Assembly (NCBI GenBank): GCA_024711295.1
Contig: JANJTB010000011.1
Span: forward strand, 1-41,090
Length of the DNA: 41,090 bases
Source of the DNA: a bacterium
GTDB taxonomy: Bacteria; Bacteroidota; Ignavibacteria; Kapaibacteriales; UBA2268
Reading direction: 5' to 3'
A model generated the notes under the pieces. That model made no database searches. It was given only the letters and a program-made list of their open reading frames with translations, and was not told where the DNA came from. This document shows positions 8,676-15,737 of the stretch, piece after piece. Within the stretch, counting starts at the first letter, position 1. Each line of letters opens with the position of its first letter. Made by a program: the position numbers and the translations under genes.

Positions 8676-10769
8676 ATGTCGAAAAATAAACTAATATTTC
8701 TAGTAACGGGTATAATAATTTTTCTTGTTAGATTAGCAGGGGATTTACTATTATACTCACTTGATTTTATCAAAGGAAGTACCGCAGTTTATTGGCATTA
8801 TTCAACCACATTGTTGATAATGCTCTCATTCAGTGCCTATTATTTTTCGATTTTCCTTGAAAAAGACAAAACAAAAAAAGAACTCACCGGTGATGATTTC
8901 TTTAATTCACTCTATCAAAACTTCGTATTGTCGTTAATAATATTACTACTTGTTATTTTCTTTTCCTTCAAAGACACATCTGCACTTTTTCGACGTTCTT
9001 ATGTAGGACTGATATTAGCAGATTTTTTCTTTTTGTATGTAGTAATTGTAACACTTAATAATTTTCATTTTACTTATAGGTGGTTGTGGTATCGTCGGCA
9101 CAAACTGACAAAATTTTATCTAACGCTCCTTAGTTTCCTGATATTAATATTGTCTGTTAACTACTCAGTGAAGATATTTTTGCCAAATTTGAATAAAATT
9201 GGTGTTCAATGGCTCGATATTTCATCTACAGTGTTGTTTGTACTGACTGCTTTGATAACATTCCTCACGAACAAAAAAACTCACTGGATGGCTGAGTTGC
9301 CCCGCTCGCAGAAGAGTAAATTCTTCTGGATAATGATGCTTAATGTAATCATAGCAATAAAACTATTGATGGAAACCAAAAGCGCAGATACTATGGTATT
9401 TGCGGGATTCGAAAGATTTTATCCCTTAGCTCTTCAGATGCTTAGTGTTTCATTTTTGCTTTACGGGATTTACTTATTCAGGTTGTTCATGAGTTTGCTT
9501 GCAGTTATTCCTTCATCAATGATAGTGGAAAAAAAATCAAGCGAAATAAGCTCACTGGCATATCTCAATAAGATTGTAGCTGAAGCACCCAATAATTCCA
9601 AAAAAGTATTAATTGACCAGGTTACAAATCTTGCTTTGCAGGCAAGTTCAGCTTATGGTGCCTGGACTGAAATTTACGAATCTGATAATGTTTATATCAA
9701 TACTTGTGTCAATATTAATCCCGAAAATATATCAGAATTAGAGAAAAACTACAGAATATCAGAGTTTTTTAAAAGAGTTAGCACTCCTGTATTAATAGAA
9801 TCAGTTCATGAGTACAGAGATTTGTCCAAAATGTTGAGTCATCTGACTGCTATTAAGTCAATGATAATTATTCCGCTAAATTCATCGCAGATGCGGGAAG
9901 GTACTTTGATAGTCTTCGATTCTGAAGATTTTTCGCTCGAAGCAGATGACTTAAAGATACTAACTGCATTTGGTGATAATGTCAAGATTGCTTTAGACAA
10001 TTCAAGACTTGTAAAGGAATCAATCGAAAAGGAAAGATTCCGAAACGAGATGATTCTTGCCAGAAATATGCAGCAAAAACTTTTACCTCAGACATTACCT
10101 TTAATACCCGGGTACAAAGTATCTGCTTTTTCGATACCGGCTACAGAGGTTGGAGGTGATTATTACGACCTGGTGATTTTAAAAAATGGTAAGCAATGTA
10201 TATTGATTGGTGATGTCTCCGGCAAGGGAATATCTGCCGCATTTTATATGGCACAGCTCAAAGGTGTAGTATTATCTGAGGCACTTGAATCTGAAAGTGC
10301 TCAGGAATTATTGTCAAAAATTAATTACGTTTTGTATGGCAAAATTGAATCTCAAATTTTTGTTACAATGTCAGCCATCACATTTGAGAATGAATCGAAT
10401 AAATTGATTTTAGCCAGGGCCGGGCACATGCCATTCCTGATAAAGAGGGAAAATTATGTTGAAGAACTAATACCCAAAGGAATTGGCATAGGACTTGCAG
10501 GCAAAAGTATATTCGACAAGCATATACGCCAAACAGAAATTACGCTTAAAGAACACGATACCGTTATTATGTTTACCGACGGTCTCAATGAAGTAAGAAA
10601 CACTGACGGAACCGAATTTGGAATGAAGAGAATAATTGAAATAGTAGAGCACAATAATGGACTGGACAGCGAAGAACTTACTAAGTTGTTAAAAAACAAA
10701 GTACGTGAATTTGCTGAAAGCTCTGATTATCATGATGATATGACTTTCATTTCGATAACAAAAATCTGA
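8676..10769 (+). CDS. Membrane-bound GAF-PP2C phosphatase, RsbU/SpoIIE type
   Basis: This is likely the input phosphatase of a partner-switching pathway: it removes phosphate from the STAS antagonist encoded next door. The first 290 residues hold about seven or eight membrane helices, starting LIFLVTGIIIFLVRLAGDLLL. A GAF-like sensor follows (about 310-445), then the PP2C/SpoIIE domain (about 460-697). The catalytic domain shows the linker ARNMQQKLLPQTLP and the metal-binding motifs EVGGDYYD, IGDVSGKGISAAFYMA, MFTDGLNEVRN and HDDMTFI, all intact. The gene is 34 nt ahead of the STAS gene on the same strand. The signal sensed by the membrane part cannot be read from the sequence. Confidence 0.9.
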   Translation: MSKNKLIFLVTGIIIFLVRLAGDLLLYSLDFIKGSTAVYWHYSTTLLIMLSFSAYYFSIFLEKDKTKKELTGDDFFNSLYQNFVLSLIILLLVIFFSFKDTSALFRRSYVGLILADFFFLYVVIVTLNNFHFTYRWLWYRRHKLTKFYLTLLSFLILILSVNYSVKIFLPNLNKIGVQWLDISSTVLFVLTALITFLTNKKTHWMAELPRSQKSKFFWIMMLNVIIAIKLLMETKSADTMVFAGFERFYPLALQMLSVSFLLYGIYLFRLFMSLLAVIPSSMIVEKKSSEISSLAYLNKIVAEAPNNSKKVLIDQVTNLALQASSAYGAWTEIYESDNVYINTCVNINPENISELEKNYRISEFFKRVSTPVLIESVHEYRDLSKMLSHLTAIKSMIIIPLNSSQMREGTLIVFDSEDFSLEADDLKILTAFGDNVKIALDNSRLVKESIEKERFRNEMILARNMQQKLLPQTLPLIPGYKVSAFSIPATEVGGDYYDLVILKNGKQCILIGDVSGKGISAAFYMAQLKGVVLSEALESESAQELLSKINYVLYGKIESQIFVTMSAITFENESNKLILARAGHMPFLIKRENYVEELIPKGIGIGLAGKSIFDKHIRQTEITLKEHDTVIMFTDGLNEVRNTDGTEFGMKRIIEIVEHNNGLDSEELTKLLKNKVREFAESSDYHDDMTFISITKI

Positions 10770-10803
10770 TGTTTATCAATAATTATAGGATTTATAAAGT
10801 AAA

Positions 10804-11172
10804 ATGACAACAGAAGAGAAATTCAGAGTAGAAAGGCGGCAAATACATGATATTGAGTGTCTCGAACTCAACGGTTTTCTTGATGCGCATACAGCTCCGA
10901 TATTAGAGAATGAAATCGGTAAGTCCTTGTCGCAATCAAAATATAAGTTGTTGATGAATTTCAGGAACCTTGACTATATCAGCAGTGCCGGACTTGGTGT
11001 TTTTATGTCTTTTATTGAAGAGGTACGTGACAAAGGTGGCGACATAAAAATGTCTTCGATGAACGATAAAGTTTTTTCGGTGTTTGATTTATTGGGATTC
11101 CCTATGCTGTTTGATATTCACCGCGAAGAAGAGTATTTGATAGATAAGTTTTTTAACCCTGCAAAGGAATAA
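10804..11172 (+). CDS. STAS-domain anti-sigma factor antagonist, RsbV type
   Basis: The 122-residue single STAS domain matches RsbV/SpoIIAA in length and layout. The phosphorylation site motif is YISSAGLGVF, where Ser61 aligns with the phosphorylated serine of SpoIIAA. In this family the unphosphorylated form binds the switch kinase and frees its target. The substrate kinase and the phosphatase are the flanking genes, which supports the assignment strongly. Its stop codon touches the ATG of the kinase gene directly. Confidence 0.9.
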   Translation: MTTEEKFRVERRQIHDIECLELNGFLDAHTAPILENEIGKSLSQSKYKLLMNFRNLDYISSAGLGVFMSFIEEVRDKGGDIKMSSMNDKVFSVFDLLGFPMLFDIHREEEYLIDKFFNPAKE

Positions 11173-11613
11173 ATGCGAACAATTTCTGAAAATGACAGCT
11201 GCTATTGCACAATCAACGACAGCACCGAACTCGAAAAGATAAGGGGGTTTGTCATTGATTATTCTAAAAGATTCGGCTTCGACGACGGCTTAAGCTACAA
11301 AATTGCTCTGGCCGTTGATGAAGTATGCTCAAATCTTATTAAGCATGCATTCAGAAATGATAAAACTAAGGAAATTCATATTTCTGTCAGAATTGCCAAT
11401 TTTAAAACTCTCGAGATAATCATTCAGGACGATGCCGATCCATTCGACCCGCTAAACACAAAATCACCTGATATGATTGAATACTTCAAAAACTTCAAAA
11501 AAGGTGGTCTTGGTATTCATATAATGAAACTTATAATGGATGAAATTCAATACATCCCAAAAAATAATGTGAATAAATGGAACACATTAATATTAAAAAA
11601 GCATCTCTCTTAA
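11173..11613 (+). CDS. Switch-protein serine kinase (anti-sigma), RsbW type
   Basis: The 146-residue protein is a GHKL ATPase of the RsbW/SpoIIAB family. It shows the N box AVDEVCSNLIKHAF, the G1 box DDADPFDP and the G2 box KGGLGIHIM. Such kinases phosphorylate the STAS partner and sequester a sigma factor or another output protein. No sigma factor is adjacent: the only one in the window is an ECF type 28 kb away. The output could therefore be unlinked or not a sigma factor at all. Translation is probably coupled to the preceding gene. Confidence 0.9.
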   Translation: MRTISENDSCYCTINDSTELEKIRGFVIDYSKRFGFDDGLSYKIALAVDEVCSNLIKHAFRNDKTKEIHISVRIANFKTLEIIIQDDADPFDPLNTKSPDMIEYFKNFKKGGLGIHIMKLIMDEIQYIPKNNVNKWNTLILKKHLS

Positions 11614-11675: not shown

Positions 11676-12731
11676 ATGAAATACATAATAATGTTTGGTG
11701 CAATAATTCTTGCCACCTTATTTTCGGTGTATCCCAATCTGACAAAACCGAAACCTTTGTGGTGGAAGATAGTAGTTTCTTTATTGGTTATCTCAGCATT
11801 AATACTGACCATTGGGCCCCCCGTAGCTGGAAATCTCGGTACAGCAAAGTATATGAAAGAGGGATTTTATCCTGAACTTAATATTCATATTCAGGTCAGG
11901 AAAGAACACTTTAAATATGATGAACAAAAAGGATTTTGGATAAAAGCATTAGGTAATTCTGATATTAATAAATATGAATCACTTGAGTTTAACCGAAAAC
12001 TTATTATTCGCGACAAAGAATTGCCACCTGAGTTCAAAGATAATAATGAATTAGTAATCAAGGCAAAGTATAACAAGGATCATGATGCACTAGAGTATAT
12101 CCAAACAAAAGCAGTCAATCCACTTTTTGATTATCCTTTTGTTCCATCACTTGACGAAAGAATAAAAATCCTAAACCTTCATGTACCTCTGGCCTGGATA
12201 GCAGTAATTGCATATTTACTCTCTATGATTTATTCTATTAAATATCTGCGAACCAATGATGTAAAATGGGACATTTATAATGCTTCGGCAGCAAGTCTCG
12301 GAACCATTTTTGCAATACTTGCAACGGTAACCGGAATGCTTTGGGCTAAATATAACTGGGGCAGCTATTGGAATTGGGACCCGCGGCAGACATCAATATT
12401 TATACTGATAATGATTTATGCTGCATTCTTTGCTTTGCGCTCAGCAATTGAAAACGAAGACCGAAGAGCAAAACTATCCAGTGTTTATTCAATTATTTCT
12501 TTTGTTACTGTACCATTCCTGGTTTTTGTATTGCCAAGACTAGCAGGTGGTCTTCACCCGGGCTCGAAGGGTGATGTTAATGCAGGTCCTTTGGTATCAA
12601 GTCAGCCAAGTGCACTTGATACTAACCTTGTATTTGGATTTGGCCTGTCATTGTTAGCTTTTACACTTGTATTTTACTGGATTCTAAATTTATTAATCAG
12701 AGCAAACATACTTAAACATAAAACTAATTAG
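11676..12731 (+). CDS. ccmC: Haem-handling protein CcmC with an inserted CcmE-like segment
   Basis: CcmC loads haem onto the chaperone CcmE at the outer face of the inner membrane. The tryptophan-rich haem motif is WGSYWNWDPRQT (W228-D235), and the flanking haem-ligand histidines are H169 in NLHVPLAW and H294 in GGLHPGS. The protein is 351 residues, against about 230-250 for usual CcmC. The extra part is two N-terminal helices (2-20 and 31-50) followed by a soluble stretch, about 60-150, before the HVP helix. That stretch aligns with the adjacent CcmE: P117-A146 matches CcmE P85-C114 without gaps, with eight identities including VIK.K and TK. The CcmE Cys is Ala146 here and the Tyr is absent. 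It heads the ccm run 62 nt after the rsbW-like gene. A CcsA-family name is an alternative, but order and motifs favour CcmC. Confidence 0.87.
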   Translation: MKYIIMFGAIILATLFSVYPNLTKPKPLWWKIVVSLLVISALILTIGPPVAGNLGTAKYMKEGFYPELNIHIQVRKEHFKYDEQKGFWIKALGNSDINKYESLEFNRKLIIRDKELPPEFKDNNELVIKAKYNKDHDALEYIQTKAVNPLFDYPFVPSLDERIKILNLHVPLAWIAVIAYLLSMIYSIKYLRTNDVKWDIYNASAASLGTIFAILATVTGMLWAKYNWGSYWNWDPRQTSIFILIMIYAAFFALRSAIENEDRRAKLSSVYSIISFVTVPFLVFVLPRLAGGLHPGSKGDVNAGPLVSSQPSALDTNLVFGFGLSLLAFTLVFYWILNLLIRANILKHKTN

Positions 12732-12742
12732 GAATTAAATCT

Positions 12743-12901
12743 ATGGAAGCGTTTTTGACTGCAAATTCCCTTTTTGTCGTGCTAGGTATAGCATTAATAA
12801 TTTGGGTGGGACTTGGGATATATTTGGCATTGATAGACAGAAAGATAACTAAACTAGAGCAAATGGTAGAGGACTTTGTATCAACTAAAACTAATGAATA
12901 A
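12743..12901 (+). CDS. ccmD: CcmD-like small membrane protein
   Basis: This 52-residue frame begins MEAFLTANSLFVVLGIALII and has one membrane helix (about 10-31). After the helix come a basic residue pair (DRK) and a charged coiled tail (ITKLEQMVEDF). Size, single helix, charged C-terminal tail and position between ccmC and ccmE are those of CcmD, which in other bacteria helps release holo-CcmE from CcmC. TAGGAATT upstream can serve as ribosome-binding site. It starts 11 nt after the ccmC stop. The sequence itself is poorly conserved in this family, so position carries much of the weight. Confidence 0.75.
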   Translation: MEAFLTANSLFVVLGIALIIWVGLGIYLALIDRKITKLEQMVEDFVSTKTNE

Positions 12902-12999: not shown

Positions 13000-13398
13000 A
13001 TGAAATTAAAATATATAATCGGTATAGCAGTAGCAGCTGCATTTGTAGTAATTGCAGTAATGTCTTTTGATTCCAACAAAATAGAGTACGCCGATTTTCC
13101 GAAAGCAAAAGAAAGCGGAAAGGTTGTCCAGGTTATTGGCTCCTGGGACAAAACAGAAAATTACCATTACGACTCTGACAAAAATGAATTTGTATTCAAA
13201 ATGATAGACGAGCAGGGCAATTCATCAAAAGTAGTATGTCAGGGAGCCAAACCAAATAACTTTGATGTGGCTCCGATGGTCGTTATCAAAGGTAAATTTG
13301 AGGGTGAGAGATTTCATGCTCATGAAGTCCTCACAAAATGCCCGTCTAAATACGAAGGACAATTCGATGAGCTAAAAGGTGCTCAGCTTTATAATTAA
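13000..13398 (+). CDS. ccmE: Haem chaperone CcmE, CxxxY variant
   Basis: CcmE is a membrane-anchored OB-fold protein that carries haem from CcmC to CcmF. The 132-residue product has an N-terminal anchor (about 3-22) and a beta-rich domain. The haem site, normally HxxxY, reads LTKCPSKYEG, so the covalent haem ligand is Cys114 and the second residue is Tyr118. The CxxxY form is known from archaea and sulfate reducers with the system I* variant that lacks CcmH, and no ccmH is seen here either. A second Cys (C80) lies in KVVCQGAKP. Ninety-eight AT-rich bases separate it from ccmD; ccmF follows after 35 nt. Its middle region is similar to the insert in CcmC. Confidence 0.93.
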   Translation: MKLKYIIGIAVAAAFVVIAVMSFDSNKIEYADFPKAKESGKVVQVIGSWDKTENYHYDSDKNEFVFKMIDEQGNSSKVVCQGAKPNNFDVAPMVVIKGKFEGERFHAHEVLTKCPSKYEGQFDELKGAQLYN

Positions 13399-13433: not shown

Positions 13434-15737
13434 ATGCTTGGAAAAGTATTTATATATGTAACCGTTTTGCTTTCTGCTCTGTCTGTTTTTGCTTTTCTAA
13501 GAGCAAACAAAACAGGCAGCAAAAAGTTATCTGATATCGGTGGCTATTTTTATTACGGCACAGTTGCCGCCGTACTGGCTTCTTCAATTTATTTGCTTGC
13601 AAATATTTTAGCTCATAATTTCCAATTCACCTATATTTGGGAATATTCATCAACAGAATTGCATGATTACTTCCTGGTTGCTTCGTTCTATTCAGGGCAG
13701 CAGGGTTCATTTATGCTATGGATGTTGATTATGGCAATTGTAGGTATGTTTGTTTATGTGCGAACTACCGACAAAGACCATCATGCTTTATCTATGGGTA
13801 TTTTTACTTCGATAATTCTGTTCATTGCAGTAATACTAATTTTCAAGAGTCCATTTGACTATGTTTGGGAAACTTTTGCCGCAGAGAACCTTCCTGTTGG
13901 ATATATGCCTGCAAATGGCAGAGGCTTAAATCCAATACTTCAAAACTATTGGATCACTATACACCCGCCTATATTGTTCCTTGGATACTCTATGATGGCT
14001 ATTCCATATTCATTCGCACTTGCAGCCCTTATCAGAAAGAGTTATAAAAACTGGGTTGACGATGTGATGCCATGGACTCTGGTAGGAACAGGCATTCTTG
14101 GACTTGGTATAATGATGGGCGGATATTGGGCTTACGAAACATTAGGTTGGGGCGGTTTCTGGGCATGGGACCCTGTAGAGAATTCATCTCTTATTCCTTG
14201 GATGATAGCAGTTGCTTTTATTCATACCCTTATTATTCAAAAGAAAACCAACGCACTTATCAAGACAAATTTCATACTTGCCTTACTGACTTTTATCTTT
14301 GTAGTATATGCAACATTCCTGACACGCAGCGGTATCCTTGGAGATACTTCGGTGCACTCATTTGTAACACCTGGAGCTATAGTCTATAATCTGTTGATAG
14401 CATTTCAGGTAGTATCCTTAGGTCTGGGCATATTCTATATAGTAATTCGTTTTGGAGATATAAACAAATATATCGGCAAAAAGGCTATGTCGCCTACTAC
14501 CAAAGAGTATTCAATGGCATTGGGCTCGATAGTATGGCTTGCACTCGCTGCTGTAGTTATTATAGGCACATCTTGGCCCGCAATGGCGGAATTGTTTGGT
14601 CAGGAAAAAGTAGCTGTAGATATATCAAATTATAATAAATTTGGCAGTATATTTGCCGTTATCTTCTTGATTCTAAATGGTATTTCATTGTATCAACGAT
14701 GGATTAACAGTAAAATTTCGGATGTTCTTGGTAAATTGATATTACCAACAGCAGCATCGGTGATACTTGTGCTGGTATTTTATTTTATCGGTCTTGATGA
14801 CATGAACTTCATTTTCTTAATGTTTGCTACATTCTTTACCATTGTTACCAATCTTGATTACCTCATCCGTAATGCAAGCAAGAATCCAAAGCTTATTGGT
14901 GCATATGTTTCTCACCTTGGTGTAGCATTACTGGTACTTGGTGCTGTTGTAAGCGGTGCTTATTCAGTAACTAAACAAGTACGTCTCAAAATGAACGAAA
15001 CTAAATCAGCTTTGGGCTATAACTTTACATTCGAAGGTTACAAGCAAATCGAAACACAGTTCAATGATAGAGAAAAATATAAGTACAATGTAAAAATAGA
15101 AAAAGAAGGCAAGTTTAATGTGGCAAGCCCTGTAGTATATTGGAGTGATTTCAACGAAAGACAGTCACCTTTTCTTGAGCCGGGCGTTTATAATAAGATA
15201 GATAAAGATATTTATTTATCTCCAAAAGCCATTGAGCAGGAAATTGATATTCCAAAAATTGCTCTCCGAAAAGATGATATTGAAGACAATCCTATTGATA
15301 AATCTTTCAAAGTTTCTGTTGTAACTTTTGTTATGGACAAAAATAATGCGATTATGGGAGACAGAGTTAAACTATCCACTGTAGTAAAATTCTTATTCCC
15401 TGATGGAAGCGAGTCTAAAGATACCTTGGTTTCTATGCTTGATGCAAATACCTGGGAAGCTGAGCCATCCTGGAAAATTGTAAACGGTTCAAACCTTGAA
15501 ATTGCTATGACAAAATTAATCAGAGATGTTGATAATATTAAGAACACTAAAGCGGTACTAAGCTTTAAGGAAGCAGGAAAACCATTACCACAACCTGTTG
15601 ATGTATTTACTTTTGACGTAACACTTAAGCCATTTATTAACCTTGTTTGGTTAGGAACCTTGGCATTGGTTGCAGGATTTTTTGTATCATTGTCAAAATA
15701 CCGTAAATCATCTAAAAAAGATATTGCTGAAGAGTAA
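13434..15737 (+). CDS. ccmF: Cytochrome c haem lyase subunit CcmF
   Basis: CcmF receives haem from CcmE and attaches it to apocytochrome c on the outer face of the inner membrane. The 767-residue product is a polytopic membrane protein with the haem motif GWGGFWAWDPVENSS (about 236-250). Four histidines fall where E. coli CcmF has its functional ones: H177 (TIHPP), H264 (FIHT), H308 (VHSF) and H494 (SHLG). The large soluble loop near the C terminus (about 520-735) precedes a last helix and a lysine-rich tail. It is about 100 residues longer than typical CcmF, mostly in that loop. It is co-directional with ccmE and the thioredoxin gene. Confidence 0.95.
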   Translation: MLGKVFIYVTVLLSALSVFAFLRANKTGSKKLSDIGGYFYYGTVAAVLASSIYLLANILAHNFQFTYIWEYSSTELHDYFLVASFYSGQQGSFMLWMLIMAIVGMFVYVRTTDKDHHALSMGIFTSIILFIAVILIFKSPFDYVWETFAAENLPVGYMPANGRGLNPILQNYWITIHPPILFLGYSMMAIPYSFALAALIRKSYKNWVDDVMPWTLVGTGILGLGIMMGGYWAYETLGWGGFWAWDPVENSSLIPWMIAVAFIHTLIIQKKTNALIKTNFILALLTFIFVVYATFLTRSGILGDTSVHSFVTPGAIVYNLLIAFQVVSLGLGIFYIVIRFGDINKYIGKKAMSPTTKEYSMALGSIVWLALAAVVIIGTSWPAMAELFGQEKVAVDISNYNKFGSIFAVIFLILNGISLYQRWINSKISDVLGKLILPTAASVILVLVFYFIGLDDMNFIFLMFATFFTIVTNLDYLIRNASKNPKLIGAYVSHLGVALLVLGAVVSGAYSVTKQVRLKMNETKSALGYNFTFEGYKQIETQFNDREKYKYNVKIEKEGKFNVASPVVYWSDFNERQSPFLEPGVYNKIDKDIYLSPKAIEQEIDIPKIALRKDDIEDNPIDKSFKVSVVTFVMDKNNAIMGDRVKLSTVVKFLFPDGSESKDTLVSMLDANTWEAEPSWKIVNGSNLEIAMTKLIRDVDNIKNTKAVLSFKEAGKPLPQPVDVFTFDVTLKPFINLVWLGTLALVAGFFVSLSKYRKSSKKDIAEE

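Follow-up and report, generated by a model that had tools for sequence, protein, structure and literature searches.

The window, as the whole stretch of 41,090 nucleotides analysed here is called, encodes a CcmC of 351 amino acids, compared with 218-257 amino acids in relatives that lack the additional segment. The question raised by this locus is what the added residues are and what they may do in a haem loader. A preliminary description had observed, correctly, that this CcmC is about 100 residues longer than usual, and had proposed that it contains a degenerate CcmE-like domain. The analysis bears out most of that idea, but on other evidence than was offered there. The genes and protein features referred to below are the following.

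11676 to 12731, + strand: ccmC, 351 amino acids, with the CcmE-like insert (Pfam PF01578, 1.3e-24 over residues 164-293)
11679 to 11813, + strand: two N-terminal transmembrane helices, in the full-length model residues 2-18 (extra, TM0) and 28-46 (counterpart of canonical TM1)
11835 to 12122, + strand: predicted CcmE-like OB domain, residues 54-149 (profile comparison, HMM search, predicted model, Foldseek and VIA)
12021 to 12035, + strand: Leu-Pro-Pro-Glu-Phe, residues 116-120, counterpart of the CcmE PxxF loop
12117 to 12122, + strand: Asn148-Pro149, where CcmE has its haem Cys followed by Pro (profile register and structural range)
12180 to 12182, + strand: His169, P-His1 (E. coli His60), 20 residues past the insert
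12357 to 12383, + strand: WWD motif WGSYWNWDP, residues 228-236 (invariance in alignment A4 and alignment to E. coli CcmC)
12555 to 12557, + strand: His294, P-His2 (E. coli His184; invariance in A4 and alignment to E. coli CcmC)
12743 to 12901, + strand: open reading frame of 52 amino acids, CcmD-like by place and length only
13000 to 13398, + strand: ccmE, 132 amino acids, of the CxxxY type (CPSKY at residues 114-118; Cys114 at 13339-13341)
13434 to 15737, + strand: ccmF

The extra residues of CcmC

The HVP motif was found at residue 169 of the window CcmC and at residues 41-74 of the insert-less relatives. The extra segment comprises ~95 residues (about 54-149) that come after TM1 and before the HVP helix, and a further ~20-25 extra residues form an additional N-terminal transmembrane helix. 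The span 11867-12130, to which the CcmE-like domain had been assigned, lies within the segment at 11835-12122 except for its last eight bases, which fall outside. TM0 (11679-11729) was present in the rows from the order and in the f12 rows that were inspected, and by reading it was absent from L036 and L037 (family f14) and from L087-L091, all of which carry the insert.

The haem-site residues of CcmC are intact in the window. His169, the WGxxWNWDP motif and His294 were invariant in all 50 aligned rows of A4 and aligned with E. coli CcmC, in which the haem ligands are H60 and H184 (available part of PMC9616876). In some long CcmC proteins outside A4 (L006, L075 and L080) the HVP motif was kept and the WWD motif was altered, being read as WNNDPR, YSGDPR and FFNWDKK. 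The full-length CcmC model (pLDDT 83.3, pTM 0.84) matched E. coli CcmC at Z 21.0 (7f02_C) and 20.3, and the haem-handling fold, P-His1, P-His2 and the WWD motif are common to the window protein and E. coli CcmC (PDB 7f02, 8ce1). The window protein differs from its E. coli counterpart in having a CcmE-like domain of ~95 residues in periplasmic loop 1 and one additional N-terminal transmembrane helix; a short first periplasmic loop with six transmembrane helices is not the layout seen in the model. The NCBIfam TIGR01191 cut-off of 186 bits was missed by the window CcmC, which scored 102.4 bits.

The insert is predicted to be an OB barrel

An insert-only AlphaFold model was prepared from window residues 50-158 with 52 rows, none of which was a stand-alone CcmE. 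The model (pLDDT 76.4, pTM 0.72, with model residues 48-56 below 50) supports an OB fold for the insert: the predicted structure is an OB barrel, the fold for which a check had been set beforehand, with a short helix in front of it. Its elements are a helix at residues 54-61, strands at 67-73, 79-82, 86-93 and 107-111, a helix at 118-121 and strands at 125-133 and 138-147.

When the insert model was compared by Foldseek with 350,542 PDB chains, CcmE structures took rank 1 (8ce8_E, E 9.4e-3, which is CcmE within the E. coli CcmABCDE complex), rank 2 (1lm0) and ranks 15 and 16 (1j6q and 1sr3), with RPA, SSB and further OB proteins among many of the other entries listed. VIA aligned 90 residues of the model with 1j6q at Z 6.9 and an rmsd of 3.5. 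No Foldseek match of the insert lay at E <0.001, and the VIA Z-scores of other OB folds, namely SSB and RPA domains, tied with that of CcmE (2hql_C reached 7.3); both results count against reading the insert as a CcmE mimic, and because of them CcmE, although ranked first, does not stand clearly apart from the other structural matches of the predicted fold. The structural alignment range ended at model residue 99 (window Asn148) and at residue 131 of 1j6q, which we take to be the His to which that CcmE binds haem. This end point gives the same register as the profile alignment.

Comparison of the insert with CcmE

The preliminary description had based the likeness on pairwise alignment. Its ungapped pairing of CcmC residues 117-146 with CcmE residues 85-114 does contain the eight identities claimed, but 8/30 is chance level, since at least eight identities were reached in 62 of 200 shuffled inserts, and pairwise identity alone therefore proves nothing. 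In the profile alignment that register held for residues 118-132, residue 117 being unaligned and a slip of two residues following after 132. From a second pairing, of residues 79-90 with CcmE 55-67, FWIK/FVFK (87-90 with 64-67) fitted the profile, and the preceding part was shifted by one or two residues. The profile alignment paired CcmE Cys114 with Asn148 and CcmE Pro115 with Pro149.

Comparison of 63 inserts with 46 local CcmE sequences using hhalign gave 93.7% (P 1.9e-7, score 39.2), the best score of column-shuffled CcmE decoys against the same inserts being 16.0 in 100 trials. With the five most CcmE-like inserts (L087-L091) taken out, the value was 74.5% (P 2.7e-5, score 29.4; decoy maximum 18.0), and those five alone gave 77.5% (P 1.9e-5, score 32.5; decoy maximum 18.3). 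A set of 71 inserts matched CcmE at 89.1% (P 2.3e-6), or at 73.2% (P 3e-5) without L087-L091; 17 rows, made up of 12 from families f55, f60 and f61 together with L087-L091, matched at 89.3% (P 2.1e-6); and all inserts including 20 more loci, at least four of these from genomes already included, matched at 90.9% (P 1.1e-6). The f12/f14 insert set (0.6%, P 0.092), a comparison of 26 inserts with 21 CcmE sequences (P 0.012, not significant) and the window family alone with four rows (P 0.33) count against the mimic reading. With 12 rows the window family reached P 0.034, but with 11 columns in another register. The profile check against CcmE that had been proposed was thus significant once relatives were added, though not for the window family alone.

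A calibrated test was carried out with an HMM of 66 inserts (L087-L091 excluded) against 6310 open reading frames from all loci; the TKCPS motif served to label the CcmE frames, and six of the CcmC frames were recognised by reading. The first 38 non-CcmC matches were all CcmE (E 4.8e-4 to 0.34, six of them <0.01), the 39th was a cut-off CcmE and the first other frame was the 44th. In the reverse search, a CcmE HMM found the CcmC of L087 at E 8.3e-4 and that of L088 at 0.0048, with L086 and L041 at <0.1. Several null results count against the mimic reading here as well: the CcmE HMM found no CcmC frame of the set at <0.1 beyond these four, and CcmE was identified on the insert neither by single-sequence Pfam (PF03100) and NCBIfam searches nor by a profile search of the inserts against the PDB. 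For the insert family as a whole, the profile-level evidence nevertheless indicates that the insert is homologous to CcmE.

Residues at the place of the haem ligand

Asn148 occupies the place of CcmE Cys114. Neither Cys nor His was found there in any of the 71 inserts, or in 20 further rows (of which at least four came from genomes already included), and Pro149 was kept in 71/71 inserts. The insert does not carry the (H/C)xxxY haem-binding motif of CcmE. The haem Cys and the Tyr had been described as lost, and both are indeed absent, at positions 148 and 152 and not at Ala146. Covalent carriage of haem and its delivery to CcmF are not to be expected of the insert, because the ligand is absent.

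The PxxF loop of CcmE reads PDLFRE in E. coli and PNNF in local CcmE. The PxxF pattern was kept in the window insert and in seven of eight close relatives (L133-L137, L139 and L140; L138 has PSEL), and it was also present in f60 and f61; Pro-x-x-Leu was found in 7 of 10 f55 rows, and elsewhere the pattern was not clear. The predicted OB fold is common to the insert and CcmE (PF03100; 8ce8_E, 1lm0/1j6q, 1sr3, 2kct), the PxxF loop has its counterpart in the window-family insert, and the Pro after the haem-ligand position is shared with local CcmE. Unlike CcmE, the insert lacks the haem-binding His/Cys, the Tyr of the xxxY motif and a free C-terminal tail; it is part of another protein and gives no single-sequence Pfam match.

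Occurrence, divergence and origin of the insert

Of the 296 genomes in the phylum sample, 292 had a CcmC, as did 114 of the 123 genomes of the order, across which presence of the insert was judged by frame length. The order matches lay in open frames of at least 294 amino acids, except for seven shorter ones (G327, G329, G303, G304, two of G350 and one of G352) that are taken to be cut or split genes. A survey of class CcmC proteins for the insert had been suggested, and an insert profile with short flanks (A3) indeed gave matches in 110 of 391 class genomes, spread over 14 families (f1-f5, f12, f14, f51-f55, f60 and f61). This count is a lower bound because A3 misses long-form genomes (for example G128, G243 and G043). 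The other class families that were inspected had a short CcmC. A scan of named genomes covered 80 loci, with a long CcmC in 51 of 54 (L038-L091; L074, L075 and L080 were outside the search pattern yet long) and a short CcmC in 25 of 26 (L092-L117; L109 had none).

Most loci of the named-genome scan come from records named Candidatus Kapaibacterium, Ignavibacteria or Bacteroidetes, and a few from records that carry the names of unrelated taxa. The records of L073 and L091 are named Bradyrhizobiaceae and Ectothiorhodospiraceae, respectively; their CcmC groups with Ignavibacteria-type rows in the core tree, and they are probably mislabelled MAGs. One in-frame TAG was seen in the CcmC match of G332 and G333, which belong to the window's family (genus g148). 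Long frames outside the insert families were considered as extra cases and rejected: a CcmC frame was present in ten of the 15 regions, and none of the ten contained the insert, only upstream read-through.

Mean identity over 26 rows was 20.6% for the insert and 52.6% for the core, which counts against the mimic reading. Among L135-L137, which are from one genus of the family and provide the three least saturated pairs (pS 0.50-0.63), the insert had dN/dS values of 0.08, 0.05 and 0.03 (core 0.03-0.04), and in these pairs it looks constrained. Four other pairs (pS 0.66-0.69) gave insert values of 0.19, 0.42, 0.44 and 0.58, which likewise count against that reading; pairs beyond these seven gave no value. 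The term 'degenerate' used in the preliminary description suits the haem-binding motif; the domain itself is present in 14 families and, in the three pairs furthest from saturation, looks to be under constraint.

In the CcmC core tree (61 rows thinned from 123) the insert-bearing rows fell into three groups, with 3 changes; with 57 rows (L035, L114, L117 and L119 dropped) there were 2 changes, and a single insert-bearing clade was not rejected (AU p 0.289). An origin by fusion, with the CcmE transmembrane helix replacing TM1, was rejected on visual inspection: the TM1 of L087 is like that of a short CcmC (L097), and the insert comes after its Pro-Ile.

The ccm genes of the window genome

The window genome comprises 3.45 Mb in 40 contigs. 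The ccmE gene lies two genes downstream of ccmC, as had been stated, with the CcmD-like frame between them, and ccmB sits on a different contig. No match to CcmH (PF03918) was found in the genome at E 0.001, and for this reason the ccm system looks like a reduced one with a CxxxY CcmE. Replacement of HxxxY by CxxxY is known from archaea, which are without ccmH, and from a few bacteria (available part of PMC9084895). On the 5' side of ccmC (8676-11613) are a 697-amino-acid membrane protein resembling a PP2C-type phosphatase, a STAS-like frame and a HATPase-like frame, which were read as a putative partner-switch module, the names being from reading alone.

A possible part in haem hand-over

The insert is located in the CcmC loop that has been mapped in E. 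coli as the CcmE docking site: according to the available part of PMC6204919, loop 1 of CcmC (Asp47, Gln50, Arg55; Gln49) docks Arg73, Asp101 and Glu105 (Arg104) of CcmE. By counting along the chain, CcmE Asp101-Glu105 were found to be the DLFRE of PDLFRE. In a modelled complex CcmE extends into the CcmC pocket (available part of PMC8975832). In E. coli cryo-EM CcmE contacts CcmB only (available part of PMC10457321), which counts against the mimic reading.

Most likely the insert mimics CcmE but lacks the haem ligand, and is tethered at the haem pocket of CcmC. This reading is suggested by the profile match, the HMM ranking, Foldseek ranks 1-2, the lack of Cys/His at 148 and the invariant Pro149, and also by the intact haem-site residues, the low dN/dS among L135-L137 and the mapped docking loop. 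In its fuller form, in which this non-catalytic mimic would cap the haem and shape the place of hand-over to CcmE, we give the reading an even chance. The first periplasmic loop of CcmC would house a copy of the periplasmic OB domain of CcmE, inserted there and now without the residue that attaches haem. The C-terminal strand of the insert, where CcmE has its haem Cys/His, runs within ~20 residues into P-His1. The insert would thereby cap the haem held by CcmC and would shape the spot where the true CcmE (CxxxY, two genes downstream) takes haem, and at each loading it may either move aside for the true CcmE or pair with it. We infer this role in hand-over and, from the connectivity of the chain, the position over the haem. 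More tentatively, the insert might be a gate, a catalytically dead copy of the client chaperone that keeps the haem covered on CcmC until displaced by the true CcmE; if so, such a pseudo-chaperone gate would be a control element of the cytochrome c maturation system.

A possible alternative, put forward with similar reserve, is that the insert serves as a docking platform, the OB domain replacing the short E. coli-type loop and binding the true CcmE barrel-to-barrel while the haem is left uncovered. Such a role would suit a domain located in the very loop used for CcmE docking in E. coli (available part of PMC6204919). It would also suit the correlation between insert and CcmE distances that remains once the CcmC core is accounted for (partial r 0.215, permutation p 0.017; 37 genomes thinned to 29), although that correlation is weak, has no other protein pair as control and concerns a poorly conserved insert. 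The insert could also be an inherited CcmE copy that is now a spacer or remnant with no role in haem hand-over, as the absence of Cys/His at the ligand place in all 71 inserts and the fast divergence, with dN/dS of 0.19-0.58 in four near-saturated pairs, might indicate. This is improbable given its occurrence in 110/391 class genomes and 14 families, the dN/dS of 0.03-0.08 in the three least saturated pairs, the invariant Pro149 and the predicted fold kept in the window.

It is very improbable that the insert is a generic OB domain that did not come from CcmE and resembles it by OB-fold convergence. The VIA Z-scores for SSB and RPA domains equal that of CcmE and the window family alone is not significant, but CcmE came first both with the insert HMM over 6310 frames and with Foldseek, profile and structure agree in register at the haem-ligand place, and a PxxF loop is common to part of the insert family. 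Least probable of all is that the insert itself binds or stores haem through other side chains, such as the Tyr at 148 in f55. Of 32 aligned rows, 11 do have a Tyr at the haem-ligand place, including 8 of 10 from f55; however, no His/Cys is conserved, 13 of 71 inserts having no His and 51 of 71 no Cys, and E. coli holo- and apo-CcmE are reported to have no haem site on the protein core (available part of PMC6204919).

As to how CcmE docks on CcmC, mutagenesis points to CcmC loop 1 (available part of PMC6204919), while in the cryo-EM structure CcmE contacts CcmB only (available part of PMC10457321). Where a CcmE-like domain is naturally fixed in loop 1, as in this CcmC, the tethered complex may prove stable enough for structure determination, and insert-bearing CcmC offers a direct test of loop 1 as the hand-over site. 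A ligand-less carrier fold built into the haem loader may likewise help to show how haem is handed over. Among the matches listed, at the level of titles and the starts of abstracts and with subscription papers and preprints mostly outside the scope, no description of a CcmE-like domain in CcmC was found; at the same level, none of the matches listed described a gate-type control element for cytochrome c maturation. The loop terms were not found in the available part of PMC12077264.

A separate ligand-less relative of CcmE

Elsewhere in the order, other families have near or downstream of ccmE a further CcmE-like gene that is without the haem ligand; it is here given the working name CcmE2 and encodes a transmembrane helix and an OB domain (for example L047:7475-7855 and, on the minus strand, L035:4112-4528). 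By profile at E 1e-6, CcmE2 was present in 44 of 123 order genomes and had no match in the window genome. One order relative, G275, had the CcmE2 gene and no CcmC match at E 1e-10. Comparison of CcmE2 with CcmE (hhalign, 29 rows) gave 94.7% (P 5.9e-8), while its match to the insert (P 0.023) was weaker than that of CcmE to the insert; CcmE2 as the source of the insert is accordingly not supported. As in the insert, the CcmE-related OB domain of CcmE2 ends before the haem ligand, but unlike the insert CcmE2 is a separate, membrane-anchored protein. It typically ends in GHVHGG..PYFHATQV, with the G-H and H-A pairs invariant in ten rows.
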